Positions 607 through 58,322 of a stretch of 64,000 nucleotides of DNA are shown one piece after another. The DNA comes from Hemileia vastatrix (Eukaryota > Basidiomycota > Pucciniomycetes > Pucciniales > Zaghouaniaceae). The position numbers were made by a program, and so were the translations under genes. Below the pieces are notes generated by a model that did no database searches, had not been told where the DNA came from, and worked only from the letters and a program-made list of their open reading frames with translations. Every line of letters starts with the position of its first letter. Positions within the stretch are counted from its first letter, which is position 1. The stretch spans positions 8,295,501-8,359,500 of the forward strand of contig JASXTE010000019.1 of the NCBI GenBank assembly GCA_030280995.1, written 5' to 3'.

Positions 607-1205
607 ATTGACAAAATAACTGATGGAAATTTGAGTAGATAATTGGGACAAAGGATTAGTTAAAATTAAAGAGAAGATATAAAATGGATGTGGAATGGTT
701 AGAGAGGAGCATTTATCTTTTATAATCATCAATAGGCAATCTAGGTTTAAGTGGGAGATTTAATATGGTAACATAGATAGGGATATTATGGGGTATCAAA
801 GTTGACCGATCCGCAATTAGAGATCAAGAATTTTTTTCCCGGGATCAGACATTATTAATTGCGGAAGACTCTTATCCACTATCCCCAGGGCTAGTGGATA
901 AGGATTCCACGATAATGCATTATCCCGCCTCTTATACCCCAATTTCCATTCCTTATTACTGATCCCAAACTCATCACATTCATGATGGATTTTTAAGAAA
1001 GTCACATGACTTATAATTGCTGATGCCATCCTTAAGTCTTTCCTCACTCTATGCTACTTAATTTTGGTGGAGAACACTTCAATGTTTTTTCTATCTACAC
1101 ACCCCAACTGCACATTTGGTGGTGAATTCCCACTTCCCTCATCACATAAGCCTTCCACCAACAACTATAAAACACCTTTCTACTAGGCAGCTACTTCACT
1201 CAACT

Positions 1206-2429
1206 ATGAATGCTATTGCTTTACTTTTAGTTCTTTACTATAAAACAGACTCTGATTAGTAAGATGCTTTAGCCTATTTGTCTTTTCTTTCCAAAAAGCA
1301 TTACATTAACCCAAGGGGCCAAAATCTTCATCATGATCCCAGATATGATCTCCACTCTATTCTCAACATTCCTCAACTAAAATTCACTCAACTATTTTGA
1401 ACTTCTCCTGATTCTTTCTTCAAAATTTATCAAATTATCTGCAAACATCCTATATTTCATGACAATTCTCAAAATGAACAGTGTGATCCTGCTATTCAAC
1501 TTGCTGTTGCACTATGTTGCTTTGGCTTAAATGGAAATGGTGCTGCTGTAAGATGTTTGGAAAATCTCTTTACCATAGGATATGGGATGGTGATATTATA
1601 CACCAAGCACTGTATGATTTCCATCCTTTCCCTCAAGTCTCAAACACTTTCTTGACCAACTCCACAACAGCAACTTGAATCCTCTCAAGTAATGCAAGCT
1701 GAAGTTTTCCCTGGATGTGTAGGATTTGTTGATGGTACAACTATACCTTTGAGTCAAAAGACTGCTTATGATGGAAACCATTATTTTGATCTCAAAAAAA
1801 GGTTTCTTCAAAATGTTCTCCAACTTCTCATCTTTCATAAACTGAATTTTTACCTTCTTTCTAGATACTCTATTGCTGTTCAACTTGTGTGCAATGTCAA
1901 TAAAAAATCTATTGCTTTTCATAGTGGCTTCCCTGGCTCATGTAATGACTCTTTGGTCTTCCAAAGAATGAGAATTTCTCAAACTCCTGACTCATACTTT
2001 GACGAATCTCAGTACCTCCTTGCAGACTCAGCATATGCAAGTGGAAATTACATTATACCTGCTTTCTGTGGTGCAACTATAGAAAGTGACCCCAAAAACA
2101 CCTTTAATTATCACCTTTCTCAATCAAGAGTACAGATTAAACATTTTATTTTGATTTTAAAGGGAAGATTTTCTAGTCTCCAGGAGCTCAGAATCCAATT
2201 TCATAAAGAATTGGAAATCAAAACTGTAAATCATTGGATAATGACTTGCTTTATACTCCACAATATCCTAGCTGATTTAAAGGATTATGGGAATGATCTT
2301 TATGAAGAAGAGGATCCTGAACCAGAACCGGCTCTCCCCTCCCTTGAGTCACAAAACATTCATTCAACCAGAATATGCTCTGTCATTATGCCTATTACTC
2401 TCCAACAATTCTCTTCACCACCCTTTTAA
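1206..2429 (+). pseudogene. PIF/Harbinger DDE_Tnp_4 transposase (H1), inactive
   Basis: This is the cut-and-paste transposase of H1. The first motif FVDGTTIPL carries the first catalytic Asp. The second Asp is in GSCNDSLVF, followed by YLLADSAYASGNYI. In the last motif the expected catalytic Glu (RVxIEH) is Lys: RVQIKHF. A 63-nt intron at 1802-1864 (GTTTCT...TTCTAG) removes an in-frame insert and restores the family junction LKKR-YSIAVQ. The upstream part, from the ATG at 1206, contains in-frame stops but aligns by eye with the intact N-terminus of the H2 copy (39962 downwards), sharing the HDNSQ/HNNSQ and CCFG/CCLG blocks. Stops and the Glu-to-Lys change make it non-functional. Confidence 0.85.
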
Positions 2430-2884
2430 ATTATTTTTTTGTACTCTCCCAATTTTCAACTTCCTTGTTTTTTTAACTTGGGTTATTTTCATGTTCCATG
2501 TTTTATTCACTTGTGTTGGTTATTTTTTTTGCATAACTAAAATTTTGAATTTTCTGTCGATTCTCTTTTTTGGATGTCTTATTGATTCATTTCATCAGGT
2601 CAACATGTAATCACATATTTTCTGCAATTGCATAATTTTTCACTGTTTCATTTTTTCATTCATCCCTCATATCCATTTCCTCAAATCCTTAAACATCTGT
2701 CAAATATTTTCAATTCCTCTTTTTTCTCATTTCATCTCTCCAGGTAAGTCTTTTTTTTTCTTATTTTTGATTTTTTTTACTTGCTAATAAGTTATTTTTT
2801 CTCTTTTTTTTTGTCCTGTAAGTGCTTTTTTTTGGTTTTCAAGGCTAGACTATTTTTTTTTATTTTTTATCGTTTTTTTCACCC

Positions 2885-3345
2885 TCTATCATCCCCCTTT
2901 CCCCCCTTCTTGTCTGCCTCCATACCCCCCTTTCTCCCCTTCTTGGCCACCTCAACTCCCCCCTTTAATCCCTCCTTTCCCACCTCAATCCCCCCCCCTT
3001 ACCCCCTCCTTTACTGCCTCAAACCCCCCTTTACCCCCTCCTTTCCCACCTCAACCCCCCCCCCTTTACCCCCTCAATCCCCCCTCAAACCCCTCCCCAC
3101 ACCCCCCAGTACCTACTTAGCAAATATTAATCGATAAGTGGGTACTGGGGGGTGTGTGCAGGGGTTTGAGGTGGGATTGAGGGGGTAAAGGAGGGGTGAA
3201 GGGAGGGTAAAGGGGAACTAAAGGGGGGGTTTTGAGGTGGGCAAGTAGGGGTTAAAGGGGGGGTTGAGGCAGGCAAGGAAAGTTTAAAGGGGGATTGAGA
3301 AGGTAAAGAGGGGGGACTTTTGGGGGGGCATTTTGAAGCAAGGAA
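2885..3345. repeat. C-rich/G-rich palindrome inside H1
   Basis: The left arm (about 2885-3122) is built of CCCCCTTTACCCCCTC-like units, and the right arm (3135-3345) is its approximate reverse complement. The centre is a short AT-rich loop with arms ending ACCCCCCAGTACC and GGTACTGGGGGGT. Pro- and Ser-rich open frames here are by-products of the repeat. H2 has an equivalent C-then-G block at 37600-38160 at the same relative place, between the transposase and the dioxygenase gene. The G-rich strand has many runs of three or more G and could form quadruplexes or a cruciform. Confidence 0.75.
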
Positions 3346-3851
3346 AAAAAGACTAATCTCTGCTTTTTAATTTGTTTTTACAGAATTTTTTCTTCTTTCC
3401 CTTAGTTTCTGGGCATTTCCCCCTGTTTCCAAAATAAATTAGGTAATTTATTTTTTTTATTTGTGTTTGTTTTTGCATATAATTAATTATTCTGAAATTT
3501 ACTGAATTCAAAGGGGTAAAGGGAGGGTATAGGGGGACTAAAGAAGGGGTTAAAGGGGGGGTAAAGGGGGGTTTTGAGGTGGGAAAGGAGGGGTTAAAGG
3601 GGGTTTTGAGGCAGGAAAGGATGGGTTAAAGGGGGGATTGAAGGGGTAAAGAGGGGGACTTTTTGGGAGGCATTTTGATGAAAGAAAAAAAAAGACGAAT
3701 CTCGTCTTTTTAATTTTTTTTTACAGAATTTTTTTTCCTTCCCTTAGTTTCTGGACATTTCCCCCTGTTTCCAAAATAAATCAGGTAATTTATTTTTTTT
3801 ATTTGTGATTGTTTTTGAAAATAATTAATTTTTCTGAAATTTACTGAATTC
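3178..3851. repeat. Direct tandem duplication of about 330 bp
   Basis: The unit at 3178-3510 is repeated at 3511-3851. Both run through G-rich sequence, a GACTTTT(T)GGG block, a T-rich stretch with TTTCCCCCTGTTTCCAAA (first copy has the same block after CATTTCC) and end at TGAAATTTACTGAATTCAA. The duplication extends the right arm of the palindrome. The interval 3852-4257 is T-rich with no gene seen. Confidence 0.65.
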
Positions 3852-4257
3852 AATTTTTTTTTCTTAATTTTATTTTAATAAATTGGATTGAATGACATCA
3901 AGTGGTATTTCCAATAGCAGGTAAGTAATTTTTATTTATTTATTTGCAATTAAATTTACTGAATTTATTTTAATATTTTTTTATTTACTCTTTTTTTTTT
4001 TTGGTGAATTTTTTTGTTGTTTAAAGAACTTTATCTGGTATTTCAATCATAATTCAGGTTTTTATTTTGAATTTTTATTTCTTTCAATATTTTTTACTGA
4101 TTTTTTTGAAATTTTTTTTTTGTTTTTTTTTACCCAAATTTTTTTTTTCTTTTCAATTATTTTACTGATAATTTTTTATTGTTAGGTTTTTTTTTAATAT
4201 ATATATTTTTTATTTTTTATTTTTTTTGTTTTATAATTTTTTTTCCAGGATGTTACT

Positions 4258-5523
4258 ATGGAAAATTAAACTCACTCATCTTCATTATCATCAATTTCTT
4301 CTGAATCATCTTTATCCTTTCTTTTTTCCTTTTCTTCAAATCTTGAAAGCTCCAAGAATACCCATCAAATATATTCAACTTCTTATTCTTTATCTTTACT
4401 TTCTTTTACCTCTTCAATCTCCTTCAATTCTATTCCTTCTCCCAATCAATCTGAGCCTTCCTTACCAGAAAATAAAAAGCAGAAAATCATGGAACCAGCT
4501 AAAGAATCAAGAAATTCAAAGAAGAAATTTTATCAAAATAGAAAATTGATTAGGATGAAGATATTTTGCAAAACATTCTTTGGACATTTGGACAATCTCA
4601 AATTTTATAAGACTTCAATATCAAATCTTAAGAAAAAATTTTTTTACAAAAACATCAAAAACCTTACAGAAGGCAGTATAGATCTCATTTTTGCAGTTGT
4701 CAATAACAGATAAAAACCTCAATTTATCTTAGAATTTCATTCATTTTATGGGAAAAAGGATGAAGTATTTTGCCAGAGTTCTGATTTAATTTCAACTCTC
4801 TATCAAATGGCTTTGGTTTGACAACCCTTATCAAGTAAAAATCTGATTTCTGGTGTCATGAAATGTTTTGGTTGGCAACCAGGATATGATCAAGGAGTTT
4901 CTTTTGGTATGTAAAAAAATTTTTTATTATAAGAAATTTTTAATTTTGTCATATATTTCAGGAATTTATTCTTTATTGAAAAATTTGAAACCAGAGCAAA
5001 TGGAAGAAGATCTGAAATGATGGAAAACTATAGGATCATTTAATATTTTCTTGGCAAATTGATTTAAAAAATTATTTATTCAAGCCTTTCAAAAAAACCA
5101 TCAACTTGCTTTAGAATCTGGTTTACCAAATCGGTCTGATCCTGAATGGGACGAAGCAATAAATGCTTATGTTTTTTGTTCTAATGTTTTCATCACTTAT
5201 AAAGGATTCTACAAAAATTTTCATCTAGATAAAAATGATAAGAATTGTCTAACGTTTGGAATTTTCTCTTATATTAATCCAGAGACTGGTGTTTCTATTC
5301 CATCACCCTCTTCTGATGAGTGACATGGCCTTTATTTTCCTGGCCATAAATTTATCATTGATTTTGGTAGTGCCAATGGAATAGTTGAGGCTATATGGAA
5401 TTCTTCTAAAAATTGGCATCAAACAACTAAAGCACCTCCAACTTTAATTTCTTGTCAAGAATTTACCCATTTTGGCTGTTCATTCCCAATAAATGAAGGT
5501 CTCATTCATCATATTAATAATTA
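4258..5523 (+). pseudogene. TET/JBP-like 2OG-Fe(II) dioxygenase gene (H1 copy)
   Basis: Family role: TET/JBP enzymes oxidise 5-methylcytosine or thymine in DNA using Fe(II) and 2-oxoglutarate. Reading through stops, a Ser-rich start (ATG 4258) is followed by a basic segment, then a core with KNFHLDKNDKN (the HxD iron ligands), FGIFSYINPETG, GLYFPGHKFIIDFG, NGIVEAIW and WHQTTKAP (the distal His), ending EFTHFGCSFPINEG. This order matches my recollection of the fungal TET-like domain. In-frame stops occur after MEN, before KPQF, in the E-rich segment near 5018, near 5060 and before HGLYFPG. An intron is likely at about 4909-4960 (GTATGT...TTTCAG). A diverged homologue sits in H2 (36038-37314), so the gene belongs to the transposon. 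Identity is from motif recall, not a search. Confidence 0.7.
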
Positions 5524-5939
5524 AAAAAAATTTAGATAAAAAAATTGCTCTTAGTAGATCTGTCAAGTATGGTAACTAAAATATTATAAAAAATTTTCTA
5601 TCATTAAATATTTTCATCCATTTTTTTTCTTTTTTTTTCTCATTTATTAAATTTTTTTTTATTTTATTTTTTATCTTTTTAATTTTTTAAATTTTCCTTT
5701 TTATTTTCCTTTTTTTCAATTTTTTTTTTCCTTTTTAATTTTTTTCATTTAATTTTGGATTTGTCTCTTCCAATTTTTTTTTAAAGTTACATCAAGATAG
5801 ATTACTATTTTTATATAATGGTGCATCTGGCCTTAGGTTGTTCTACTGGATATTATATAAAATAGGAAAACTTGATTGGGACTGGTGAAAATAATTGGTG
5901 GTAGAAATTTCATTTTTAAATTTTTTTTCCATTTGATTT

Positions 5940-6175
5940 CTTTGATTCAATAAATTTCAGGGCGGGGTATTGCCAAATTTTCATATCAGACTTTAAAAAA
6001 GATTTTGAGTTTAAAATTTGGTGATGCCCTTCCCTTAATTCAATAAAATACACGGAGGGTCTTGCCAAATTTTCATATGAGACTTGCAAAAAAAAATTGA
6101 CTTGAAATTTTAGGTGATTCATGCCCCTTAGTTCAATCAAATGCAGGGGTGGGATTGGGAAATTTTCAAATGTGA
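5940..6175. repeat. Non-coding tandem repeat, about 3 units of 80-95 bp (H1)
   Basis: The units share TTGCCAAATTTTCATAT(C/G)A, a T-rich middle and AATTCAATAAA(A)T. Two related units stand at 35690-35855 in H2, again between the dioxygenase gene and the convergent accessory gene. The flanking interval 5524-5939 is T-rich with no gene seen. Confidence 0.6.
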
Positions 6176-6388
6176 CTTGAAAATTTTAGCTAATAAAAAA
6201 TTTTTAACATTAAAAATTCTTGAAAATTTTATTTAAAAAAGAATTTTGAACATTAAAATATGAAAATTTAACTAATGATGGATAGAGTAAAGAAATACAG
6301 GAAATTAAGATAAAATTTCATGTACAATTAATTATGAACAGTTGAAGCGTGAGAGAAATAAAACAAACTAGTCATCAAAAAATTTCTT

Positions 6389-7757
6389 TTAACATTCAAT
6401 TTCCTCAACAGATTTATTTGCTTTAACACATTCTATCAAGAAATCTTTCTTTTTGGAATTTTCCTCACAATCAAGCTTATATTTCATCTGTTACATGAGG
6501 TTTTGATGCTCAAGTGTTTTCTCCTCTTTCTTTGATTTTTCAATACTTGGAGCTAACTCAAATTTCTTCTCCTCCAAGTCTTGTACCCTATCATCCTTCC
6601 GTAAAGAGAGTTTGTACTTCCTCTCCTCCAAGACATTTGTCCTATCATCCTTCCATAAAGAGAGTTCCAACTTCTTCTCTTAAAAATCATGTACCCTGTT
6701 ATCCCTCCTTAAAGAGAGCTTGTATTTTTCTTTTCAAACTTTAGAGTCTCTTTAGAAACTTCCAATTGTTCCAGAGTGATAAGAAATATTAACAAAAATT
6801 AGAAGAAAAGAAGAGTAAAGTATTAAGAGTTTTGGTATCACTTACCAGCATCACATTTCTCCAAAAATTCTTTGATAGAAGAAAAAGGGGTTTGAGATGA
6901 AGTATCACTTTTTCTTCTTCTTTGAGAGTGGAAATTTAAACTACTTGAATCCCTTCGCTTTTTGTTCAAGGTCACATTTTCCTCCTCATCATTGTCACTG
7001 GCTTCTGACTCAGTTGATTGTGGCTCCTGTGTTTGTTCTTCAGCCTATTTAGAAATAAGTAAATGTAAATAAAAAAAGATTTGGTAAGATAAAAGAAAAA
7101 AACATACTTGAGTTAGATCAGGTTAGTTTATATCACCATAAGGATCTATTGAAAAGATATCTTGATTTGTGGAAGTTAAATGAGGGGAGGCTTGAGTAGA
7201 AGAAGAAGGAAAAAGATTTCTTTTGACATCATTTTTGGAGATAGCATCTTCACCATCCAATATGTTTGCAGGATTAACATTAGCTCACTCTCCAAAAATA
7301 GCATCCATCTCTTTAAAGTAAGGACATAAAGAATCAAGTTTATTGTCTATGGATTTGATGCCCTTACTGATATTGAGGTCAGTAATACCAAAACCAGTAG
7401 AAGATGAAAGAGTTTTTGCCTTCTTGTATTTGGCTCAATAATGCTTGAAGAATTCAGAAATCATTTTAGGTAAAAGATCTATACTTCCCTTGGTCTTATT
7501 CCATAATTCATTGGCCATTAGAAGATAACCATTAACTTTTGATGCTGGGGGCTGTCCTACTTTAGTTGCATTTTTGGTACCAAAACAAGAATCATAGTTA
7601 GATTTTGTTTTAAGCCAGTTGATAAGAATGAGATGATCATCTTTTTTAATTGAATGGTCTTTGATTTCTTTGCTGAGCGGGGGATAGAGGGAGTAGTGCA
7701 ATTTGAAGAACAACTGGGGGAAAGCTGCCTTTTAGAAGATCTATGATGATGGGGCAT
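6389..7757 (-). pseudogene. Harbinger accessory protein with coiled coil (H1), broken
   Basis: This is the second protein typical of PIF/Harbinger elements; such proteins often have a Myb/SANT-like DNA-binding region that helps the transposase. It starts as MPHHHRSSKRQLSP (ATG at 7757), then after a frameshift reads INWLKTKSNYDSCFG, PASKVNGYLLMANEL and SSSTGFGITDLN. An acidic/Ser region with KKRRDSSS follows, then a donor GTAAGT (near 6848). The last exon (6389-6770) encodes charged 18-residue repeats such as RKYKLSLRKDDRVQDLEEKK, matching a 54-bp DNA tandem repeat. In-frame stops are present. The H2 homologue lies at 31300-33908. The SANT assignment is a guess; homology between the two copies is clear. 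Confidence 0.6.
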
Positions 7758-8379
7758 GTTAAGATAATTGAAGATGAAAAGGAGAAAAAAGAAGCAGATG
7801 AGATAGCAAGGTGTTCTGAATGGAGAGAATAGACAGGATGAGATGAGAATGGGAGTGCGCAGCAAGGTAGAAGGCATATCCAGAGAGTAGTCAAAGATGT
7901 GGTTATGAATGAAAGTAGGCCAAGATGTGGTTATGAAAAATTGAGTAGGAAAATGTCGGATAAGAGGTCAACTTTGACACTTAAAATGTCTAATAACCCA
8001 ATTATTAGAAAAAATAATTGTGGAATATAATTGGGGTATAAGGATTTTTATCCACAATTAATTTAATTGCAGATTGGTCAACTTTGTTACCCCCTATTAG
8101 TACGGAAGTTTAGATAGGGGACTTAGTATGAGGAGATATATATGCAGATAGATGTAATCAAGTATTTTAAAGATTATACAGAAAAAACATGGAGGAAGTT
8201 AGAAATGAGATGTTAGGGATAGATGACATTAAAATACTAGTTTCTCAATAGGACCAACTCTTGGCACAGAGTTGTTAGAATTTGTGTCTTTGGAGAGGTC
8301 CTTCTCAAATTTTTTTCTGCCAGGCCAAGGGTGGATACCTAGCCAGGTGAATTCCAAAAGGGGAAAAAGTAAAGAAGGA

Positions 8380-8874
8380 AGTTTTATCTCAGAAAACTGA
8401 CAGAGTAGTGTAATTTAAAATCAGGAGCACTTTTCTGCCCAGATTTAGATCCTAACTTTTTCTGTTGTTGATATTCATCATCCTCATCTGATATGAGTTC
8501 CTCAAAAATAAAAATAAAAATAAAAAAATTAATAATTAGCAAACAAAAAAAACAAAAAAAGGGAAAAAATGACTTACCTTGAGAGATGAGGTTAGGAACA
8601 GACAGAAAGACTAGACAGGATCAGACAAGGATGGGAGTGTGCAGCAAGGTAGGGAGGCTGGAATATCTAGAAAGTTGTCCAACATGTGGTTATGAAAAAT
8701 TGAGAAGAAAGATGTGAGATAAGAGGTGAACTTTGACAAGTAAAATGTCTAAAAACCCAGATATTTTCAAAAAAAAAATGCAGAAGATAATTGGAGTATA
8801 AGGATTTTTATCCTCAGTTAATTTAATTGTGGATCCGCTAACATTGATGCCCCCTATTATGTAGAGAAGATTAA
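8380..8874 (-). mobile_element. Truncated Harbinger-family terminus
   Basis: Positions 8580-8874 repeat the last 300 bp of H1 in the same orientation: both carry GCAGCAAGGTAG, ATGTGGTTATGAAAAATTGA and a CCCCC end followed by TATTA. On the minus strand a donor GTAAGT follows the terminal region, and further in is an acidic peptide (EELISDEDDEYQQQKK). No matching left end is visible. The interval 8100-8379 is unassigned, with no gene seen. Confidence 0.6.
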
Positions 8875-9369
8875 TTATTTATAATATTTGATGATTCATG
8901 TTATGAATGATGATTGTTGAATTTTAATTAAAATTATTATATGAAATCATTATAATTTTTTTCTTTTGACATCCCCTAATGAGAATGGTGGAAGGGGAAG
9001 ACGCGTATATTTCTGTAAAGTGTGCATACCGAAGAGGTTTACAAAAACGGTGGTGGATGCCCTGAGTAGCTAATATTGGCAGTAATATGCAAGTAAATGT
9101 TGAATATTTGCTGCAACGGCCTAGAGTGAGGACAGCATGTATAGATAATAGCAGAAACTAATAATGAAAAGATAGGTAGTGTTTAATATAGTATCAAGAA
9201 GTTTATATTAACCACTTGTAAATACATCTTTTTTGCACAACAAATTTATTTTAATGTGTATTTGTTTTTTGAATATTTATTCGACATATGGGTTTAAGTA
9301 TTATTTGTTGCCAATGAAATATGTTAAATGATGATCCCCTCGATTCTGTTGAGTGAAAGGCATCGATTT

Positions 9370-10092
9370 CTAAGAAAAGTAGTGCTTGAAATGAACTAGT
9401 GCACTCAGAAAAGGCGCAAGAAACAGAGAAAGTCCAGGGAGTAATGTCGTAGTGCTTGATTTCCGGCGTCCGCCTCCAGCATTTGCTGCAGTTGTAGTAC
9501 CCGCAGCTCCACCTCTAACTCCACTTCCTACTCCACCTTCACCTTCAGCTGCACCATGACCTCCACCTCCACCATGACCTCCACCTCCACCATGACCTCC
9601 ACCTCCACCATGACCTCCACCTCCACCATGACCTCCACCTCCACCATGACCTCCACCTCCACTTATAAGATTCACTACGTTCACCTTTGTTTCCTTACTT
9701 CCATTGCTGTAATCAATTGCGCTTGAAGGGGTAGAGGTACTGGAGAGACGATATTGTTTCTTTTTTAAACGCTTAGGAGATTTTCTTCGGGAATCGCTAA
9801 TCTCTCCAGCCTTACGTTTTTCGCCTTTATTATCACCTTTGGTCAGTGGAATATTAGCAGGCTTTCCAAAATTAGGACCTCTGGTATCTACACTGCGAAA
9901 AGAGTCTTGAAATTTTATCAAAGTCCCTGGATAGAAATGGCTATCTCCAACTGCCAGTGAAGTAGACTGTGGCACCAAATTGATATCAGCAAATAAAGGA
10001 GCGACGGCTGCTGCTCTGCACAACTTTGAAATGCCAGGAAAACAAATCACTCCAACGATGAGTAGAAAGCTATCACAGTTCACGGCAACCAT
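9370..10092 (-). CDS. Predicted secreted Gly/His-repeat protein with basic patch
   Basis: I do not recognise a family. The 240-residue intronless frame has a plausible signal peptide (residues 1-27, hydrophobic core FLLIVGVICF), a basic region with a bipartite-NLS look around residues 93-113 (KRKAGE...KSPKRLKKK), and a low-complexity block at about 145-180 made of six HGGGGG units. The C-terminal 25 residues are hydrophobic (LLPGLSLFLAPFLSAL) with a short polar tail, so a GPI or membrane anchor is possible. Base composition and codon use look balanced compared with the AT-rich transposons around it. A possible TATA element lies at about 10418-10424 on the minus strand. A secreted protein with an NLS would be an effector-like candidate in a pathogen, but that is speculation. 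The ATG at 10092 is the first in the frame. Confidence 0.6.
   Translation of the reverse strand: MVAVNCDSFLLIVGVICFPGISKLCRAAAVAPLFADINLVPQSTSLAVGDSHFYPGTLIKFQDSFRSVDTRGPNFGKPANIPLTKGDNKGEKRKAGEISDSRRKSPKRLKKKQYRLSSTSTPSSAIDYSNGSKETKVNVVNLISGGGGHGGGGGHGGGGGHGGGGGHGGGGGHGGGGGHGAAEGEGGVGSGVRGGAAGTTTAANAGGGRRKSSTTTLLPGLSLFLAPFLSALVHFKHYFS
9553..9660. repeat. 18-bp minisatellite, six identical units
   Basis: Six perfect copies of ACCATGACCTCCACCTCC lie inside the secreted-protein gene; on the coding strand each gives HGGGGG or its rotation. Six identical units suggest recent expansion or homogenisation, and the copy number is likely polymorphic. Confidence 0.95.
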
Positions 10093-16561: not shown

Positions 16562-17096
16562 ATGTGTGACAACAATGACATTGTGAGTAACAAGGCAAAA
16601 CCTTATAATTTAAGACCTAGAGCTGAAAGACCTGTTACAGGACATTCAAATGGAGGGTCAAGAATCACCAATAATAAACAACACCCCACCAATGTCCATG
16701 GAGGAAAAGGAAAAGCTCTTAAAACAAATGTCAATAAAGAAGTCCAAAAACACATTGCAAGAGCAAATTCACTCCCTCTCAACCCTACTTAATACACTAA
16801 CAATAAGGGTAAACAATATGGTATACCAGATCAACAATCTGGAGAAAAGGGCGACACAGGGCTTTATAGAAGTCAACCAGGCTCTAGTGGATATAAGGTC
16901 TCATCCACAACCAGTGGCACCAAATACCACAGCAACACCTCCAGCCCCAGAAGAGGACCAAAAGATAACAGTCAGCAAATGGAAGTGGGATTGGTATGCC
17001 CAAAACTACAACAGCCCTCCTCAACAGGGATCCAGCAGTCACCCTTACAGGGGAAAGGCAAGGAGAGGCAGGGGAAGTGGGATAAGACCTTGGTAA
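16562..17096 (+). pseudogene. Leader frame between LTR and gag, frameshifted
   Basis: A frame starting MCDNNDIVSNKAKPYNLRPR overlaps a second one containing KKSKNTLQEQIHSLS, a coiled-coil-like stretch, then a Pro/Thr-rich part and a basic Arg/Gly tail (RGKARRGRGSG). Together they look like one protein split by a frameshift, perhaps an N-terminal Gag piece. I do not recognise the family. The interval 15969-16561 is untranslated leader with no gene. Confidence 0.45.
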
Positions 17097-17373
17097 GTCA
17101 TCCAACATCTTATGATAAATTATATCAACCTAAAAATGAATTACTTATAGGTAATGAGATTGATAGGTAATTATTGGATAAAATTGAAGAGGATTTAAAA
17201 AACTATTCATTTGATAATCACATGTTAAACTTGTCTTTAGATGGGGACAATGTAACTAGTTTTATTGATAATCAGGATAATACTATTAATATAAAATTGG
17301 AATCATATGGATCAAATAATGAGTCTTCTGAGTTGGACACAAAAAAATAGAATATTTTTTAAAGGAGAATCCA

Positions 17374-18702
17374 ATGGAATCAAAAATAATAAGTAAATTA
17401 TTATTGAGAATTGAAAAATTGGAAGAGTTCTCAAAAGAGTCAAACAATAATACAGAAAAGGTATTATTACAGCTAACACAATCGTTGAGTACAACAGCCA
17501 ATAGATTAAAACTTATTGAAAATTCAAATAATGAATTAATCAATGAGAATAAAAGATTAAACTCTGAGATTAGAAATTTAGAAAATAAATTAGAACACTC
17601 TCAGAATATTATGGCTACCATTGAGGGAAGTGTTAAATTATCTTTTTCAAATGTAAATGATACTCTAACTCATGTACCTGTAATACAGGATAGGTTACAA
17701 ACAGTAGAAATAGAAGTAGAAAACATGTTGAAAAATACTGAAAAAATAAAAGATAACACTTGTTATGTGGCAAGAGTACCTGTTTTCATGAAACATGCAA
17801 ATGAAACACCAATGATGGAACATGAAAATAGTGTCATGGGCTCTGAGAATAATAAATCAGTAAAAGATGAAATAAATGATCATCTTTCCAAAGTAAGTGA
17901 ATTACTGAATATTCCTCAGGTTAGGGAAGTAAAAACTAACCAAAAGAACTGGCCTAAGTTAGATCAGTACCCTTCTTTTGATGGGGATTCAAAATCTGAT
18001 TGGCAGAAATTCATACAAAGAATTGATAAATTCAAATTTTCATACAAATTACCTGATGAAGAAATTACTTCAAAGTTAATATCTTTATTTACAGATGTGG
18101 CCTTATTATGGTTTGAATCTGTATTGAGTGAGGGAATTAATTACTCCTGAAATGAATGGAAGGCACTAATTGAAAGGCAATTTGGTGGCCCAAAATTTAG
18201 AATCACTCAACAAAGATTGTATGAAAGAACAAGATATAATCCAAATGCTGGAGATAAACCCATGGTCTTCTTAATTAATTTAATAAAGATCATGAAAGCT
18301 ATGGGTCCAAAAATGGATTATGAAGAGTGGAAAGAAAAAATAATATACAAGTTGCCTATATCAGTTAGAGACAGTATTGTAGCTAGAACTGAGACCATCA
18401 GAGATACCTCTGGGTTCATCAATATATGCAATGAGATATTATTAAACCACAAGTATGAAACCAAGTATAGTAATTACAGACAGAGTGTTGAGGTGGTAAA
18501 ACCTACTACAAGTAAATTACCAGCGGAGAAGAAAAAACCTTCAGCTCCCCTTGTCCCTAAGAGACAAGAAAATAACACTTGTTACAAATGTAATGAACCT
18601 TGGGTTAAGGTTCACACATGTAAGAAGAGAATAAATTTTATTGAAACTTCACATAACTCTGAACCAAGTAATCATGAAAATGAGAACGTGGAATCTAGTT
18701 AG
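17374..18702 (+). pseudogene. Gag polyprotein of the chromovirus, one internal stop
   Basis: Gag forms the particle and binds the RNA. The N-terminal third is a coiled coil (KRLNSEIRNLENKLEHSQ). The central capsid-like part has WPKLDQYPSFDGD and DWQKFIQRIDKF. A TGA at 18148-18150 follows EGINYS. The frame resumes with NEWKALIERQFGGPKFRI and TRYNPNAG and reaches a zinc knuckle CYKCNEPWVKVHTC near 18579-18620, typical of Ty3 Gag. It ends at a TAG at 18700-18702, before the protease. Confidence 0.8.
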
Positions 18703-18875
18703 GATTGTAAAAGTAACATATCTTACAGTGATGATGAAAATGAGATATTTGTATTAGAACAGGATATTATGTTCCTGAATGATGCTATACCTCATACAGA
18801 CACATCTTTAACTTCCATTGAGGAAGCTGAAATAATTAAAGATGTATCTCATGATACTTACAAAATAGCACCTGT

Positions 18876-22440: not shown

Positions 22441-22590
22441 AAACCAGTACTTGTAATATTTTATTATGTTTTATTTCTTTAAAATATAATCTTTAATGCT
22501 ACAGAATTAATCTGAATACCTGACAATTACAAATAAATAAATAAAATGTATAACTTATCATTTTTTTATTGTTTTTTTTGGGTGGCCGAG

Positions 22591-30640: not shown

Positions 30641-31771
30641 AATCATGATTTTCATTACTCAGAAAATTATTCTCCTAATTTTCTTCTGAATCTTAAATAA
30701 ATAAACCCTGAGATGGAGAACAAGACACTTTATAATTCAAAAATACTATTTTTATCTTGATTTCTCTCTATGCTGAATTTTTTTAATTTTATCTTGAAAT
30801 TTCATTTTAGCCTCTTTTGGTAGGTAGTTTTGAGAATATTGTGAGAAAAATGTTTCTGAATCTATTTTACAATTATTAATTTTTTTTTGATTTTTGAAGA
30901 ATCATTTAGAGCCCTTGAAATTAAAACAGGGACACACAATAGGGGGTGTCAGTTCTGGAAAATCTGCACTTACAAATCAGCACTTAAAATTTGCAAAAAA
31001 GTCACTTATTTCAAAAATGGGTGTCAGTTATGACCTCAAATCAGCACTTTTTTCCTGATTTTTTTTTCAAAGCCACATGTTGGCCACATTATCACATTTT
31101 TGTCCCTCTCATCCCTGTCACAAGTGACACCCAGACCTCTATCCTCTCATCAATCCTTGGCACACACTCCTCACTGAGATTTAAAACATTTTATTGCAAC
31201 ATCTTAAACAGGCATATTTTTTTCCTTCTTTTTTTATGTTTTCAACCTCTTAATCTCTTCTCTTGTAACATACCAGCTTCATAATTCCCCCCATAAAATC
31301 CAACACTCCAAAGGCAACTCATAAAAATGCTACATTACAAAGATCTTCCCATAATGCAATCCCCTCACTAGAGAAATCAAAGTCTGGACAGCTAGAAAGG
31401 GAAGATTATCTCTTCATCAACAACTTCCTCAAAATTAAATCAAAATATGATTCATGTTTTGGATGTGAGAAGTCCACCTTCATCAAAGGTCAATGGCTTC
31501 TTGTTGATGGCAAATGAAGTAAAAAGAAAAAAAGTGAGAATTAACATCAATCCTAAGCAAATGAAGAAGAGGTTAAAAATTTATCAATCAAAATATAAAA
31601 AGGCTCATTTTGCTTTCACTTCCACTGGCTTTGATATTGATTATGATGATTTGGAGATTGGAATTACAACTGTTTCCAAAAAGCTAAATTTCATGTGTCC
31701 TTTCTATGAGGAAATGGATAATCTTTTTGGTTCCCAAGTTGATGTCAACCCTTTGTTTAAACATAATAATA

Positions 31772-33053
31772 GGGGGTGTCAGTTCTGGCAAATTGGCACT
31801 TAACTTAAGTGCAGATTTCAAACCAAATCAGCACTTAAATTTTGAAAAGAAGTCACTTACTTCAAAAATGGGTGTCAGTTATGACCTCAAATCAGACCTT
31901 TTCTTGCTCACCTACTTCTCACCACACATTCCCCTTGTTAGTTTGTGCTTCATAGATCAAGTTCTCACTACTTGTTTTCCAATTGAAACATTGTTATCTG
32001 ACCAATGTTAAGTTTTTTTTACTTCTTTTTTTTCAGTATTTTTTCTTTTTCTCTTTTTCTTCTTGATCATTTAGGTATGTTTTTTGTTTTAATTTTGGTA
32101 AATTTTTCCACCTCTCATGCAACGACTCACACCACTGCCACCACCTCCCTGCTCACTACCACTGCCACAACCACCTCCTCCTCCTCACTCACTACCACCA
32201 CTGCCTCCTTGCTCACTACCACCACCTCAACCACCTTGCTCACTACCACTACTCCCACCACCATCACTCACACAGCCATCACCGGCTCACTCACCCCCTC
32301 AACCACCTCACCCACCACCACAACCAGCTTGCTCACCACTACAACCGCCTTTCTCACCACCAGATACAGCATTAAGAAAAAGAGAAATGATAATTTCACT
32401 ATACAACTGTGGAAAAAAGTGCACTAGCCTAATTTACTATCAAAAAATAATAATAATGTCCTTATAGTTAGGAAAATGGCTGTACATGATCTAAAATTGT
32501 AGCTAGGTGAGAGCAAATGAACTTCAGAAGTTTGTGATACTTCTAAAATCCTCTTTTTTGTAATTTGAAATATACTGAAATATTTGAGACATGAGAAAGC
32601 AAATTTGGTGACTTGCTCATTAGTGTTTTGTACATAAGGAGCAAGAAATTTCACTCCTTCATTTTTTATGCAGTTTGTTTTGGGTGTTTGGGATGTTTGG
32701 TTGCTTATAAATCAATCATGAGTGAGGGGAAAGGGCTGTTATGAAGAGAGGGATTGTAGTGAAAGATGGGAGTGAATTAATGAGCAGAGAGTAGTGAGAG
32801 GAAGAGGGGAATTGAAAGGGGAGGGGTGATAGGAGCTGCAAGTGGAGAATGTTACAAAAGAAAAGGAGAGGTAGTGGGAGGTGAGAGAGAGGGAGAGTAG
32901 TGAGAATTTTGAAACCAGAACTTTTGGTTGAGAAAGTGCGGATTTGAGTGAAATGAGTGACTTATTTCATTTTGAAATCCACCAGTGTTGGGGCTAGTGT
33001 GTTTTGGAAATCCGCACATAAATAAATGTGGATTTGCCAGAACTGACACCTTC
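31772..33053 (+). mobile_element. Nested non-autonomous Harbinger relative, TSD TAATA
   Basis: Ends GGGGGTGTCAGTTCTGGCAA and (reverse complement) GAAGGTGTCAGTTCTGGCAA. TAATA stands directly outside both ends (31767-31771 and 33054-33058). About 150 bp at its right end match the right end of H2, so it is a deletion derivative or close cousin. It holds no transposase: a T-rich start, a CAC-rich minisatellite (32112-32360) and a G/A-rich half. Confidence 0.85.
32112..32360. repeat. CAC/CTCACTACCAC minisatellite
   Basis: Imperfect repeats of CTCACTACCAC(C/T)(A/G)CC fill this block. The Thr- and Pro-rich frames it opens are artefacts of the repeat. Confidence 0.8.
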
Positions 33054-34145
33054 TAATACTAAGTAAATAACATCTGGCTCTCAGCCATCCAATAATCCTC
33101 CCAACACACCTGTACTTCAACAAAATCAATCCCCTCCAGCTTCTATCCATAGTTCAGCTGAAGATGATCCCAACTATCAAGCAGAACAATTATTTTGGAG
33201 TAGATCTAAGTCCTCAGAGCCCCAAAATTTTAATTTATGTTTACTTTCTCTTTTTTCTTCAATTCTTTTCTAAATTGCTCATTATTTCTTTTCTAGTCTC
33301 CTCCTACTCAAACTCAAATTTCTAAAAATATTAACAATTCCAGCAATGACAATGCTGCTTTGAAAGCTGCTTTAGATGAACTTCCTGAACCCTCAGCTCA
33401 AAGTCTAAACTAAAGCTTTGGGCCTCAGCTTCAATGGACTTTAACCATCTTTTAAAACATGTTAATACTTCAACCATCTCTTTGTCCTCCCTTGACAATT
33501 ATTTTGAGAAAAAAGATATAAGTAATATTTGGTCATTATATATCTTTTTCAATAACATATTTATTTTTGTTCTATTCAATGTTATCACCAAAATCCTCTA
33601 TTACAAAAAATGCCCTTGACTTTGAGAAGATGAAGTTTGATCATATGCTAATAAAAGATCAATGGGCCTTAGATTTGGAGGAAAAAAAATTGCTTCAATA
33701 AAATTTTGAAAAGGCTTAATTTGAGGCAGAGGAGATGGAAAGAGCTCACCTTTGCTTGGAGAAAACAAAAGACCATGAATTTCAAAGAGAAATGGCAAGT
33801 TGTGAAGTGGAAAAACAAGATTGTTTTTAAACAAATAATTCATTACGGATTGTATAAAAAATGGCCAATCTTATGAGGACATTAAAAAATTACTTGAACT
33901 CTTTAATTGATTATTTGTTTATTTGGTTAATGTTTGGGGAATGACTCTAATAGTTACTTTTAATCTTATCAAAAATAGTTATATCATGAGATTCTGATAA
34001 CACCATTTGTCCTTACTGGAATCTAAAATATTGCACTTTTGGAATTCCAGATGGTAAAATAATACTGAAACCTGTGCAAAAAACCTCATTACCAACATAA
34101 TTTTATCACCTCACCACTAATTTACATTTCTAAATAGAGCTAAGT

Positions 34146-35659
34146 TGTCAGGCTAAGATCCACTTAAAGGATGTGAAACTAGCTTGATAAGTTTTTGTCT
34201 AGAAGATTTAAATGGTCCTATATGAATACTGTAGTATAAATCCAACAAACAGTAAAATATAATTCAGAATAAAGGCTTCAGTAATATAATTCTCACTATT
34301 TTTATATGTGGCTTACAATCTTTTTAGTTGGTAGAAAAATATATTTTAATAATTCAGATACTATTCAAAAGTCTTATAAAAGTACTAATTTATATTTATT
34401 GTAATTTATTTGGCTATATTGGTTAAATTGTAATGATAAAGAATGTAGAAACAAGGCTCAAAAAACCTCCTCCTTTTATACACACTGAGTTCCCCAATGA
34501 TTCCCTTGATGTACCATCCAATACACAGTTAATGACGCCTCAAAAAAACTAAAAGACATTCCCATAAACGTCCCTAGTAACCCATGACATAGTTAGACAA
34601 GTAACAACTGTCAAAATCCTGTAATAATAAGGGAAATCCATCAAAATTAAAGAAAAAGACAAAAAGAGGATATATGCGTATAAAACAATAATATAAAAGA
34701 CTAAAGGAGACTTTTTAAGGTTAATAATAGCTTAATAATAAGGGGGATTTACTGTAGAAATGGAGGAGCTAATTCTGACATTATACTACGTGAAATTCCC
34801 ATCCCAAAATAACCAATATTGACTGAGAAACCACCCAAAAACTCAAAAAAGAGCGTGAGATGTGGGGTAACTACATGCAGTCCTTGGCAGGCGCTTTCAT
34901 GGGTAAATCCTTGACTAAAATTAGGCGAATTTAAGCGTGGTGATAAAATAAGACGCCAAGAGTGAGGTTATTAATGAAATTAGTGCATATAAACAAGGTC
35001 AATGCATTATTAATTAAGCTAGGACACTAAATAAGTGCCTGTTGCCTATTTTAGTGTGTTTCCCCACAGTGGGCATAGAATGTGGGGTAATTATAGTGTG
35101 AAAAAGCTAACTTTGCTAAAAATGAAGCTATTCACACGGGAAAAAAGCAGGCAGTATGTGGCCAGTACACAGAAGCCATTTCTGGCATGAAAAACACCAA
35201 TTTTGAAAAGTGTTATTTTTATGCATTTAAATAGCCAAATCAATAGCCAAATCAATAGTCCTAAATGAGCCCAATTGATCTGTCAAAGCACAATTTTGAT
35301 ATTCTCAATTTTATAGCGCATATAGTCAACTTTTTAGTGAAATAAAGCACATTTCTTGTTTTTTCCGTAAAACAATAAATATAACAGCTTTAAGTGTACT
35401 TAAAAATTATGTGGCCTTATACTTAAGGCTCTTAAGACTACCCTAACATATTCAAACTTAATATTAAGTACATAAGACCTATAAAAGGTGGATATATGCG
35501 TGTATATAAGGTGTTATAATGGCATCTTTTGTATATTATCATAATTTTACTTATGTATACTGTTTGTTTCCTCTCAATTATTGCTCCCCTGTATAATTCA
35601 TGTGGTTAACATAACTAATAAGCACTTTTTACTCAGTCCTGGGAATATACAGGCTGACA
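34146..35659 (-). mobile_element. Solo LTR of the chromovirus family, TSD TAAGT
   Basis: This is the reverse complement of the 1,502-bp LTRs at 14467 and 22591, bounded by TGTCAGGCTAAG and CAGGCTGACA. TAAGT lies immediately before (34141-34145) and after (35660-35664). It is 12 bp longer because ATAGCCAAATCA is duplicated near 35231-35254. No internal sequence remains, as expected after LTR-LTR recombination. It is inserted in H2. Confidence 0.92.
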
Positions 35660-35689
35660 TAAGTCAACAAAATTCTATATCTGAATGGA

Positions 35690-35855
35690 AAATTTGGCAA
35701 TACCCTCCCCTGCATTTTATTGAAGCAAGGGGTGGGTATCACCAAATTTTTCTAAGTCATCAAGTTTCCATGTCAGATTTGAAAATTTGGCTATACCCTC
35801 CCATGAATTTTCTTGAAGTAAGGGGTGAAAATCACCAAAATTTAATATAATTCCA
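35690..35855. repeat. Non-coding tandem repeat, 2 units (H2)
   Basis: Two units share AAAATTTGGC(A/T)ATACCCTCCC, TTTATTGAAG/TTTCTTGAAG and AGGGGTG...ATCACCAAA. They resemble the units at 5940-6175 in H1 and occupy the same relative place, between the ends of the two convergent genes. Confidence 0.55.
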
Positions 35856-36037
35856 TAAATTAATAAATAAATTAATAAGATAAGTTAAATTTACTAGTTT
35901 TAAAGTAATCACAATTCCTCAAGTCAAAATGTAGATCAAGTCTAGAAACTAAGTTTGAGACTTTCCACAGGTATAGGCTAGATGAATACAATGAAACAGT
36001 TTAATTTTTTCATGATTAATATTTATACAACACAAGG

Positions 36038-37314
36038 TCATTGGCTCATTACTTTAGTTTGATAAATTGAAATATCAGATTTATTTAGTAAAAATTTATG
36101 AAAGAATAAAAAATATTCAATGACTTTACAAGTCCCCATACTTTTTGCTCTACCTAAAGTTATATTAAATTTATTACCTTTACCTTCTTTTTTTACCTTG
36201 TTTATCCTTTGGGTTAGCTTTTGACTTATTTGGAAGGAGCAGCCAAAATGAGTAAAGTTGTGACAAGATTCCAAACCTGGAGGAGTGTTTCTTGTCTGGT
36301 GATTATCATGAGAATATTTCCAAACAGATTCTTTTATTAAGTTTCAAAATCCAAAATCTATTATACACCTGTGGTCTGGGAAATATAAACAATGTCCTTT
36401 GATTTTAGCAGGTGAGGGAATAGGTTGTCCAGTAATAGGATTGATATAAGAGAAGATCCCCAAAGTAAGATAATTGGAATCATTCAAATTGGTGTGTATC
36501 TTTTCATGAAATCCTGAATGAGTGATTATAACATTCAAAAACAATAGATACTCATTCCTAATTCCTTCCCATTCAGAATCACACCAATTTGGTATTCCTA
36601 CTTTAGTTGAAAGTTCAAGATTTTTTTGAAAGGCTTTATTACAGTGTTTTTTAAGGAAAAGATTAAGAAAAGAATTAAAGAAAGGTAAAGAGTCCCATTT
36701 TTGAAAATCATTATCTATTTCCACTTTAGATAAATTTTTAAGCAAAGAATAGATGTCTATAGAAAATAAAAATGAGTAAACTACATTAAGAATGAAACAA
36801 TAAAAATTATTAGACTTACCAAGAGAATAAACTTTAATGAATACTGGTCTCCATCCAAAACCAATCATGATACAACCAAACAAATTCTTATTTCTTATTG
36901 TTAAGTGAACCAAATCCATTTGATAGAGTGTCCTAATGAGATTGGATAGTTGAATAAAGGATTCATCTTTTACTCCATTGAATGAATGATTTTTGTAACT
37001 AAATTGAGGTTTAAAAGTATTACTGATTACAGCCTTCACTTTATAGCCTCCTAATTTGGTTATATATTTGATATCTTTGGGTAAATTCTTGGGATATTTA
37101 TTTTTTATTAACTTTAGTTTTATAATACTTGATGTTAGATATGTGTCCAAATAAAATATCCAAGTATATTTTTGATAATTCTTTTATTTTGATAAGTTCA
37201 ATCATCATTTTTTATGTTTGAAGGTTTTGAAGAAGATTGAAATGAAGTAGAAATTGAAGAAGATGATAAATTTGAAGATAAAGGTGTAAGGCTTGAATCA
37301 GAAGAAACAGACAT
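36038..37314 (-). pseudogene. TET/JBP-like 2OG-Fe(II) dioxygenase gene (H2 copy)
   Basis: Homologue of 4258-5523. A Ser-rich start (MSVSSDSSLTPLSS, ATG 37314) is followed by the conserved KPQF, QLSNLIRTLYQM, a GW.P block and IDIYSLLKNL. The core reads SGFHEKIHTNLNDSN, LGIFSYINPITGQPIP, LYFPDHRCIIDFG, then NHQTRNTPP and NFTHFGCSFQIS. The distal His is kept, but the HxD position reads HTN, so an iron ligand is lost. The main frame is open from 37150 to 36344, then a TGA after DFGF and further frames to 36038. Length (about 420 residues with the tail) exceeds H1's. The better preserved frame suggests later decay than H1. Confidence 0.7.
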
Positions 37315-37599
37315 TTCTTTTCTGAAAAATAATTTTACTGGTCAAATAAACATAAAAGTTTTTTAAAAATTAAATGAAAACTCACATAATTTAAATTAAA
37401 AGACCTTAAAAATTTGCTTATTACTTTACTTGAATTTGAGGAATTTTTTTGGTTAATTCTGCACAAAAAAAAAAGATAAAAGAAAGAGAAAAAAAAGATA
37501 AATAATAGAAGAAGTTTTAAAGCTTTTCTGTCAATTTTTCAATGGCTCCCTCATTGTTCCCTGTAAAACTTTTTTTTCAAAATTTTAATTGCTCTCACA

Positions 37600-38160
37600 T
37601 TGGTCCCCTTTCTCCCCTTGTAAAACTTCTCCAAATACCACTTAAAACTGCCTCCAATCCATCAAAATACCCCCAAAGCCTCTCCAAAAGGACCCCAAAC
37701 CATCACCAAAACACCCCAAACCCTCCCATCAAACCCCTTCAAACCCCCTTAAACTTTCCCCCTCAATCCCCCCTACTGGTCCCCCTCATATCCCCTTCCT
37801 GCTATTTGTTTGTTAACAAACAATATTCATCAATCATTAGTTAACTAATTCAATTTTAAGTTATTTGATTAGTTATCAAACAATAAATGAAGATTGTTCA
37901 TTAACTAATAAACAATTGATTTCAATTATTTATTAATGAACCAATAGCTGGGGGGTAAAGTGGAATTAGAGAGGGATAAGATGGGGGCCAGGGGGGATTG
38001 AGGGGGAGATTTTAGGGATTTATAAGGGGAAGAAAAGCGGGATTGGAGAGGGTTAGAGCTGGGGTTAGAGGCAGCCAAAGAGAAAGGAAAGGGGGATATG
38101 TCAATGCCAAGGAGGGGTGAATGTGGGGAAAATGAGCAGACCAAGGGAATGAAAAAAAGA
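37600..38160. repeat. C-rich then G-rich inverted block (H2)
   Basis: 37600-37800 is rich in CCCC(T/A)...CCCAAA, and 37945-38125 is rich in GGGG(A/T)... on the same strand, separated by a TTTGTTTGTTAACAAACA-type AT palindrome. It is the counterpart of 2885-3345 in H1. The interval 38160-38712 shows no gene. Confidence 0.6.
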
Positions 38161-38712
38161 GAGGAAAGAGAGAGAGGAAAAAAAGGTTTATTTTACCTTT
38201 GAAATGAAAAAAACTACATACCAGAAAAATGAGAAAAATGAGAAATAAAAATAACAATTAGTAAAGATAAAAATAAAAATGAAAAAATGACTTGTCTGGA
38301 GAGATGAGATGAGAAAATAAATGAAACCAAAATGTTTGAGAGATGTTTGAGGAGAAGAGGAAAAGGATATAAGTGATGAATAAAAAAAGAATGACTGAGA
38401 AATTATGTAATAGCTGAAAATATGTGATTTCATGTTAAGGTGGTGAACAAAAACAAATGAGACAGGGAAAAGAGACTTTCACTGAAAATTCAAAATAAAA
38501 TTCAATATGCAAAAATAAAATTACAAAAGAAAGAGAATAATACACACAACTCAATCATTTGAAGAGTATGAAAAGAATAAAAAGGGTTTTGTTGAGAAAC
38601 ATTGTAGTATTATTTGCATAATGATGGAGTGCATCCCAAAGGGAAGTAAGATTAATAGTAGATAAAAATGAAATGAAATTTGTAATAATTTAAGAACAAA
38701 TAGCTAAATCTC

Positions 38713-39962
38713 TCAATGTGCTAGTGTTATTGAAAGAAATTTTGCCCTTATGCTAGTGGTTTGAGAAATAGAAGTGTTGGATATAGTGGGAGGTGTTTCA
38801 ACTTTATCATCTTCATACAACTCTAACCATTGATCTTTGAGGTTAGCAAGTAGGTTATGAAGTATAGTGCAACACAGAATCCAGTTGATCACTGCCTCCA
38901 TTTTGGATTTATTTCTAAGGGTACTTCTTAATTCCCTTTAACTAGAAAAAAACCTTTCAAGATTCCAATAGAATGTTCAATGCGGACTCTTGACTTTTCC
39001 AAATGATTGTTGAACTTGGCATTTTGACTGTCCACAGATGCTGCTCCCTGAAAAGCAGGAGGTACGTAATTTCCATTCACATATGCAGAATCTGCCAGAA
39101 GATACTGATCTTCATCAAAGAATTTTTCAGCTTCTTTTGAAATTTCCATTGTTTGAAAGACATAGGAATCATGACATGATCCAGGATAGCCAGAAAAGAA
39201 AGATATAAATTTTTTGTTGATTTCACATATAAGCTGAATGGAATTTGAATCTCTATAGAGAAGATATAGTTGTTTGTTTTAGTTTCAAAAAGAATGAAAG
39301 GAATTAAAAATAATCTAACTCTTTTAACATTCAAAGTAATTGTTTACACCTTGAGCAGGTTTCTGGCTCAAAGGAGTAGTAGTATCATCTACAAAACCAA
39401 TACATCCTGGGAATCCCTCTGCTTGAATAACCTGAGATGATTCAAGTCACTCTTCTTTAGTTGGCCAGGTGAGAAGTTTAGATTCCAAGGAGTTGATAGC
39501 AGTGATGCATCATTTTGTATAAGTTTTAACAGATCCATACCCTAAATCAAAGACATTTTCCAAACATTTCAAGGCAGCTCTGTTACCATTGGAACCCAAA
39601 CAACATAGTGTGATGGCTAATAAAATTGAAGGATCATGTTGTTATTTTTGAGAGTTATTGTGAAATACAGGATGGTCCTGAATAAGCTCAAGCAATTTAA
39701 GGAAAAATTCCTGAGAAGTCCTGAACAACTGTCTAAAACTGGGTACAGAGAGGTTAAGAAGGGTTTGGATGGTGTACTTGGGGGTATGAAGTAATTGAGT
39801 CTTTCTAAGAAGAAGATAACATTTCCTGGCCATTTTTGATAAAAAAAGAAAATATTCTTCAATATCAGAATCAGAATTGCAATCAGAGTCCAAGAGGAGA
39901 TCAAGAGCTACAAAATTCATTGCTTGATGTAGCTTATCGCAATTTGAGAGTGAGGAAGGCAT
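38713..39962 (-). pseudogene. PIF/Harbinger DDE_Tnp_4 transposase (H2), frameshifted
   Basis: The start MPSSLSNCDKLHQAMN (ATG 39962) leads into an acidic stretch and ...DHPVFHNNSQK. After stops come GFPGCIGFVDDTTTPLSQKP (first Asp kept), an intron-like gap near 39230-39310, then PGSCHDSYVF (second Asp), YLLADSAYVNGNY and SRVRIEHSIGILKG, where the catalytic Glu is present, unlike H1. The C-terminal NWILCCTILHNLLANLKD matches the family. At least three frameshifts or stops disable it. Confidence 0.82.
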
Positions 39963-40562
39963 GACTCTTATACAGTATAAAAATGTAAATGATGTACAAT
40001 GTTTTGAGTTATAAAGTGTTATTCTGTGGAGTGCTGTTTATGAATAGGATGATGCTGATAAATCAGTGAAATGGGATGTTATGGTGAAATCAGCACTTTT
40101 GGTTGAGAAAGTGCACATTTGAGTGAAATAAGTGACTTATTTCATTTTGAAATCCACCATTGTTGGGGCTAGTGTGTTTCAGATATCTGCACTTAAATAA
40201 GTACAGATTTTCCAGAACTGGCACCCTTAATTACTCCAAATTTTGACATCTAGTAGAGTTTTAAAAACTCCTTGAAGTGCACAATTGGGAAGAGTTACTT
40301 ATCAGCCCAGTTTCCACTCTTCCAAAAATTTCTCTCTCAACAAAACTTTCTAGCTTGACTCTTGTACTTTAAATAGACTGAATTGTGAAACCAGAAGAAA
40401 AAATACCAGCCCAAAAAGAAAAAACAAATTTAAATTTCAAAGAAACATCTCCTAGAAAAAATTTGGAATCCACTTTTCATATCTTCAAGTCAGCTGACCT
40501 ACTATAATCTGGGACTTTCTCAACCATGGGAGAGATTATAGCATTAGGGAAGTCAGCACTAT

Positions 40563-58004: not shown

Positions 58005-58322
58005 CCCGCCCCTCAACAAGACGCTGGCGAGTGTTTCACATGCTGTAATTAGTAAAGAAGAAAGAGTTTTTTTGTGGTTTGTTTACGAAAAAGTGATTTT
58101 GGTTGAATTATTATTATCATGTATTTATCTACTTATTATTTAATTTAATTTAATTTATTTATTTCATTTTATTTTATTTATTTTTTTGATTATATATATA
58201 TCATTGTAAAAAATTTACTGGAAGAGAAAGAGAGTGAAATTTGAAGAAAAAATCAGAAAAAAGAAAAGGAGAAAAGAAAAAGAAATGAAGAAGGGAATAA
58301 AGAAGAGAAAAAAGAAAAAAAA

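Follow-up and report, generated by a model that had tools for sequence, protein, structure and literature searches.

The window analyzed here, a stretch of 64,000 nucleotides from a Hemileia vastatrix contig (JASXTE010000019.1), harbors an element, H1, whose anatomy and kind leave little doubt that it belongs to the PHISTA-type transposons, Harbinger superfamily elements with TA duplications, and that this copy is dead. Copies of such elements within this one genome indicate that their TET gene has been constrained and has been exchanged independently of the transposase. Taken as a whole, the locus is quite likely best explained as a dead PHISTA-type copy with a transposase, a dioxygenase, a third protein, and an anti-silencing mechanism.

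Structure of the H1 element

H1 is bounded by inverted repeats of about 30 bases, each abutting a TA dinucleotide. The left end reads TA and then TGGGGTATCAAA (787-800), and the right end reads TTTGTTACCCCC and then TA (8083-8096). Between the ends lie, in order, the transposase gene (plus strand), a low-complexity tract, the TET gene (plus strand), a minisatellite-like tract, and the third gene (minus strand). H1 is collinear over its full length with the element at locus L014, the main segments being 80-88% identical. The features of H1 are as follows.

787..788: TA target duplication of H1, left
789..8094, plus strand: complete element of PHISTA type (H1), 7.3 kb (inverted ends, each flanked by TA; alignment with L014)
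789..819, plus strand: terminal inverted repeat of H1, left
1062..2429, plus strand: DDE_Tnp_4 transposase gene, decayed (455 codons, with 4 in-frame stops)
4258..4906, plus strand: TET-like gene, exon 1, Ser-rich N terminus and start of the domain, decayed, predicted start
4907..4961, plus strand: predicted intron GTATGT..TTTCAG within the TET-like gene (from sequence and alignment rather than from a transcript)
4962..5521, plus strand: TET-like gene, exon 2, with HLD, FGIFSYINP, IIDFG, and HQTT; 3 in-frame stops; PF20515 in both pieces
6360..7970, minus strand: third gene of H1, decayed, approximate limits; homologues in H2, in L002, and across L007-L014
~7288-7731: possible divergent Myb/SANT-like domain of the third gene, followed by a linker and a charged, helical stretch
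8064..8094, minus strand: terminal inverted repeat of H1, right
8095..8096: TA target duplication of H1, right

The initial annotation had placed a TET-like gene between matched inverted ends in the company of a DDE_Tnp_4 transposase, and this arrangement was borne out: Pfam matched DDE_Tnp_4 in the piece at 1656-2429 with 72.5 bits, and the ends are flanked by TA. With PF20515 and DDE_Tnp_4 both above their cut-offs inside the H1 ends, the view that a TET/JBP-like gene rides on a Harbinger-like element was also right. Two isolated H1-type right ends occur elsewhere: one at 8623-8860 of the window, without the remainder of the element, and one at 63706-64000, continuing into L001 up to position 662, which is 92.5% identical to the H1 end over 456 bases.

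The TET-like gene

The profile matches confirm the region 4258-5521 as a decayed, predicted TET-like 2OG-Fe(II) oxygenase gene. The HMM search proposed in the initial annotation was run, and PF20515 (2OG-FeII_Oxy_6, "Tet-like 2OG-Fe(II) oxygenase superfamily"; curated cut-off, 27 bits) matched twice above its cut-off, at 5063-5323 (46.8 bits; E, 4.5e-12) and at 5324-5524 (32.5 bits; E, 1.1e-07); the N-terminal frame at 4270-4713 gave no PF20515 match. A 2OG-Fe(II) fold family, the lack of which the initial annotation had named as evidence against its proposal, is therefore hit. The HLD, FGIFSYINP, FP..IIDFG, GIVEAIW, and HQTT blocks do occur in the order that had been described. The distal Arg of TET/JBP 2OG-Fe(II) dioxygenases binds 2-oxoglutarate, and it had been asked whether copies keep the whole HxD...H...R signature. 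The first part held in most copies: HxD is kept in 8 of the 12 copies read (H1, L007, L008, L009, both L010 copies, L011, and L012), the variants being HxN in H2 (HTN) and L013 and HxE in L002 and L014. HQT follows in H1, L007-L009, the first L010 copy, and L011-L014, and HQ(T/N) is found wherever the C-terminal part was read; the frame of the second L010 copy stops short of this block. The Arg, in contrast, is not evident past HQTT in the aligned copies. The AlphaFold model of the TET protein was unusable (mean pLDDT, 35) and sequence searches with the protein matched no solved structure.

The third gene

The third gene has long open frames in L008 (2268-3026) and L009 (2470-3228) and also in L012 and L013. 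Myb_DNA-bind_4 matched in five of nine aligned third-protein rows, always below its curated cut-off of 27, the best match being that of L009 (20.4 bits; E, 7e-4); the H1 third-gene piece itself gave no match to this Pfam family. In a shuffle control, Myb_DNA-bind_4 was found in 4/5 real third-protein pieces versus 0/5 shuffles. Because 3/5 shuffles matched other families at E values of 0.037-0.13, only the matches in L009 (7e-4), L008 (0.006), and L013 (0.028) lie below the noise, and in L008 the FUR family matched as well as Myb_DNA-bind_4 (both 0.006). The predicted model was weak (pLDDT, 53), and fold searches and comparisons with it gave no clear match. Short of proof, it is possible to probable that the third protein contains a divergent SANT-like domain, and the protein possibly binds DNA.

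Related elements in the window and the genome

The window contains a second element of the same type, H2, in the opposite orientation and with the same three genes.

30942..40227, minus strand: second element of PHISTA type (H2), flanked by TA (30940-30941 and 40228-40229)
31272..31767, plus strand: third gene of H2, first part, broken
31772..33053: nested 1.28 kb element in the H2 third gene, H2-like ends, own TA duplications
33067..33870, plus strand: third gene of H2, later part (alignment at 33025-33270; remainder by position and frame)
36134..37183, minus strand: TET-like gene of H2, broken, iron site HTN (PF20515, 48.4 bits)
38716..39983, minus strand: transposase of H2, broken

The H1 and H2 proteins share 54% identity over the main transposase stretch, 52% in TET, and 45-51% in the third protein, compared in pieces. 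The initial annotation had the TET gene captured by H1. The gene does lie inside H1, but that statement was too narrow, as the three-gene plan is common to two families in the window that have diverged from each other. The interior of the nested element at 31772-33053 gave no match to the three PHISTA genes apart from some 30 bases of overhang at each end, and this gene-less element is likely a non-autonomous derivative. Elsewhere in the window, a host RFX-type gene region occupies 48546-52036 (BCD_RFX, 166 bits in 48546-49721), and a 253-aa frame at 44641-45402 on the minus strand, with no Pfam match, contains a GNCGFSCI motif that we take to recall OTU-like proteases.

Searches of the host genome (748 Mb, 791 contigs) yielded 10849 loose candidates for PF20515, of which all 150 that were scored passed the cut-off, and 15188 candidates for the H1 transposase, of which 148 were scored. 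The scored transposase matches other than H1 were 81-86% identical, with 455-codon frames in many, and stop-free frames were present among some of the matches for both TET and transposase. The transposase domain of the L012 copy scored 86.2 bits (DDE_Tnp_4, Pfam).

Eight elements were fetched, L007-L010 on PF20515 score, L011-L013 on H1 transposase score, and L014 on the H1 TET piece. In the first set, a transposase was found within 10 kb at three of four loci (L007 had none within its 10 kb), and the third gene at three of four. The three loci chosen on the transposase alone all carried both TET and the third gene, and L014 carried all three genes. The absence of TET from most intact members of the family, which the initial annotation had named as evidence against its proposal, is not what the three transposase-chosen loci show, few as they are. 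Across the fetched elements, TET was present in 8/8 and the transposase and the third gene each in 7/8. Of the third gene of the first L010 element, only a tail remains, ending at 7134 where an inverted PHISTA-type element (7135-10000) is nested in the first; this second element carries its own third gene along with a piece of TET (9142-9691), and its transposase would fall outside the stretch examined. L002, in the 10 kb to the left of the window, is a further element with TET, a third gene, and a transposase remnant. Of the 12 TET-bearing elements in all (the eight fetched, the nested L010 element, H1, H2, and L002), 11 have the third gene, and a transposase piece is present in 10, a tally that is no census because loci outside the window and its flank were picked on TET or transposase matches. 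A random 40 kb block of C19 (L003-L006) contained none of the three genes. TA is found on both sides of H1, H2, the nested element at 31772-33053, L008, and L014, and the sole end found for L011 is without TA. In L008, a long simple-repeat tract that is open in several frames (5800-7667) separates TET and transposase.

Constraint and CpG decay

Between families, dN/dS was 0.07-0.36 for TET, 0.13-0.37 for the transposase, and 0.11-0.24 for the third gene, with dS often saturated and four pairs undefined; for the transposase, H2 was set apart from L008 and L009, and for the third gene, the H1 side was compared with the H2 side. These low values suggest that, in the lineages that spread, each of the three proteins was under selection. 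Close copies gave higher values, up to 1.24, as expected for drifting dead copies.

Eight PHISTA copies, of which two were partial, had observed-to-expected CpG ratios of 0.09-0.27, compared with 0.67 in the host RFX gene region (48546-52036). The two other transposons in the comparison, named by their reading frames and not matched for age, were a Gypsy-like element (16600-22500; 0.06) and a Copia-like element (58300-62400; 0.44), and the gap between these two probably reflects a difference in age. Between related PHISTA copies, transitions had occurred at 30-44% of CpG bases versus 5-14% of other C or G bases. CpG depletion of the PHISTA copies indicates that TET did not keep inserted copies from such decay, which argues against lasting protection. 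In the rust A. psidii, transposons are described as hypermethylated and CpG depleted in the portion of PMC12774611 available to us.

Exchange of the TET gene between PHISTA families

The genes of these elements do not share one history. In the transposase DNA tree, H1, L010, L011, L012, and L013 are separated from L008, L009, and H2 with support of 100/100. In the TET DNA tree, L007, L008, L009, and H2 are instead joined by L011-L013, and H1, L002, and both L010 copies fall on the other side of the split (100/99.8). An AU test rejected a TET clade made up of the H1-transposase group (p, 0.003), that group having been named after the L011 mosaic had been seen. The transposase and third-gene parts of L011 are mostly nearer to H1 (72-94% identical per 200-base chunk outside repeat tracts), whereas at L011 3501-4900, which spans TET and its 3' flank, identity to L008 (65-86%) and mostly to H2 (42-82%) is above that to H1 (at most 68%).

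Synonymous divergence gives the same picture. Between H1 and L013, dS is 0.22 for the transposase, 0.31 for the third gene, and 1.79 for TET; by Fisher's test, in which sites within a gene are not fully independent, synonymous change differs between TET and transposase (p, 8e-18) and not between third gene and transposase (p, 0.21). L014 is uniformly close to H1 (86.6% identity in the transposase, 86.3% in TET, and 88.3% in the third-gene segment), and against L011 its identity is 85.9%, 68.2%, and 75.0%, respectively. L002 differs from H1 by a dS of 0.35 in the third gene and 1.56 in TET, and in the TET tree it is placed with the second L010 copy (100/100). From these conflicts of trees, identities, and dS, we find that a single background of transposase and third gene carries TET genes from three or more clades, L002 being placed there by its third gene. 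Because similar transposases (dS, ~0.2) carry diverged TET genes (dS, 1.8), the TET slot appears to have been exchanged between PHISTA families. The dS of about 1.5 between the TET genes of L013 and L008 leaves, at most, some relative of the H2 family as the donor.

The exchange junctions lie within the low-complexity and minisatellite-like tracts that flank TET on its two sides, and recombination in these flanking repeats presumably effected the exchange. Tandem units of about 190 bases 3' of TET in L010 (5775-6777) match the minisatellite-like tract of H1 at an exchange junction. Tentatively, TET could be viewed as a fast-swapping cassette that is repeatedly replaced while the transposase and the third gene stay, with junctions in the flanking repeat tracts; the swapping is perhaps driven by host countermeasures or substrate changes that favor new TET versions. 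An account without exchange would hold that the TET clades on one transposase background are paralogues that were lost differentially, and it draws on the fact that the donor and the direction of exchange cannot be fixed. We consider it unlikely, as it needs two TET genes to have been long coresident in one 7 kb element, whereas H1, H2, and L011-L014 each have a single TET gene, and the mosaic takes in the 3' flank of TET as well.

Possible role of the dioxygenase

The best reading of the PHISTA TET gene, which we regard as having an even chance of being correct, is an anti-silencing role with a putative catalytic activity, substrate, and effect. The dioxygenase would oxidize 5-methylcytosine on transposon DNA, acting in trans, and this oxidation would relieve methylation-based silencing for long enough to allow transposase expression and transposition. 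A function of PHISTA TET in escape from methylation-based silencing is also proposed in the available part of PMC12730594. The iron site is intact in some copies, but the unrecognized 2OG-binding Arg and the many broken copies weigh against this reading. The CpG decay of inserted copies does not refute such a role, as it is compatible with anti-silencing by live copies; the decay of TET-bearing copies makes a short-lived benefit to active copies more likely than lasting protection. The enzyme may instead modify bases in another way, involving 6mA or a hypermodified pyrimidine like that of base J/CMD1, which would mark DNA rather than demethylate it. This is a minority prospect that gains from the distance of the PU-type proteins from characterized TETs and is left open in the same part of PMC12730594, but Pfam recognized no glycosyltransferase or other modifying partner in the subset of element frames scanned.

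The suggestion that TET is a passive passenger, trapped in the element and maintained by hitchhiking only, is disfavored and seems improbable to us: nonsynonymous change is well below synonymous change between families, and TET was present at all of the loci picked on transposase alone (L011-L013), even though the gene has decayed in many copies (e.g., H1, H2, and L011) and TET transfer between transposon superfamilies is termed passive in the accessible text of PMC12730594. We give very little weight to a dioxygenase that gates transposition at the excision or target step rather than acting on expression, as no feature seen in these elements points to such a role and nothing direct speaks for it, although the TET gene does travel with the transposase. 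For the anti-silencing role, the different TET versions on the same transposase background amount to a natural experiment that makes the idea testable.

Comparison with known systems

The initial annotation named no earlier description of a TET gene paired with a Harbinger element. That has been overtaken, since the pairing is already published: Kojima (2025; PMC12730594), in the part available to us, reports Harbinger transposons of Puccinia species and Austropuccinia psidii that are TET positive, have TA duplications, and encode a third protein, under the name PHISTA. Within the library searched, no second description of PHISTA turned up. H1 and H2 share with PHISTA, as far as that text goes, the Harbinger-type DDE transposase, the TA duplications, the TET/JBP gene, and the third gene. 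They may differ in the third protein, which gives weak Myb/SANT-like matches, as the same text states that the third proteins of PHISTA contain no Myb/SANT domain.

Among more distant relatives, Nuwa and PIF-Harbinger elements have a Harbinger-type DDE transposase like that of H1, but their duplications are 3 bp long, and the part of PMC12730594 at hand gives Nuwa two proteins, the transposase and a Myb/SANT partner protein. According to the same source in part, a TET/JBP gene within a DNA transposon, as in H1, is also found, as PU or AG type, in Dileera, hAT7, IS3EU, EnSpm, ESTA, and Helitron of rusts and in Kyakuja and Zisupton of mushrooms, all with unrelated transposases, and among the other TET-positive transposons for which it gives a duplication length, only ESTA shares the TA duplication with H1. 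HarbingerS of Phytophthora, also named there, is a Harbinger element with an extra chromatin-modifying gene, which, unlike that of H1, encodes a SET histone methyltransferase and no oxygenase. TET exchange between transposon superfamilies is reported in these portions of PMC12730594, which also assign the TET genes of PHISTA to two separate clusters (P2 and P6), so that exchange involving PHISTA is implied. What our analysis adds to that text, where it is not spelled out, is a fine-scale mosaic of TET genes within a single transposase group.
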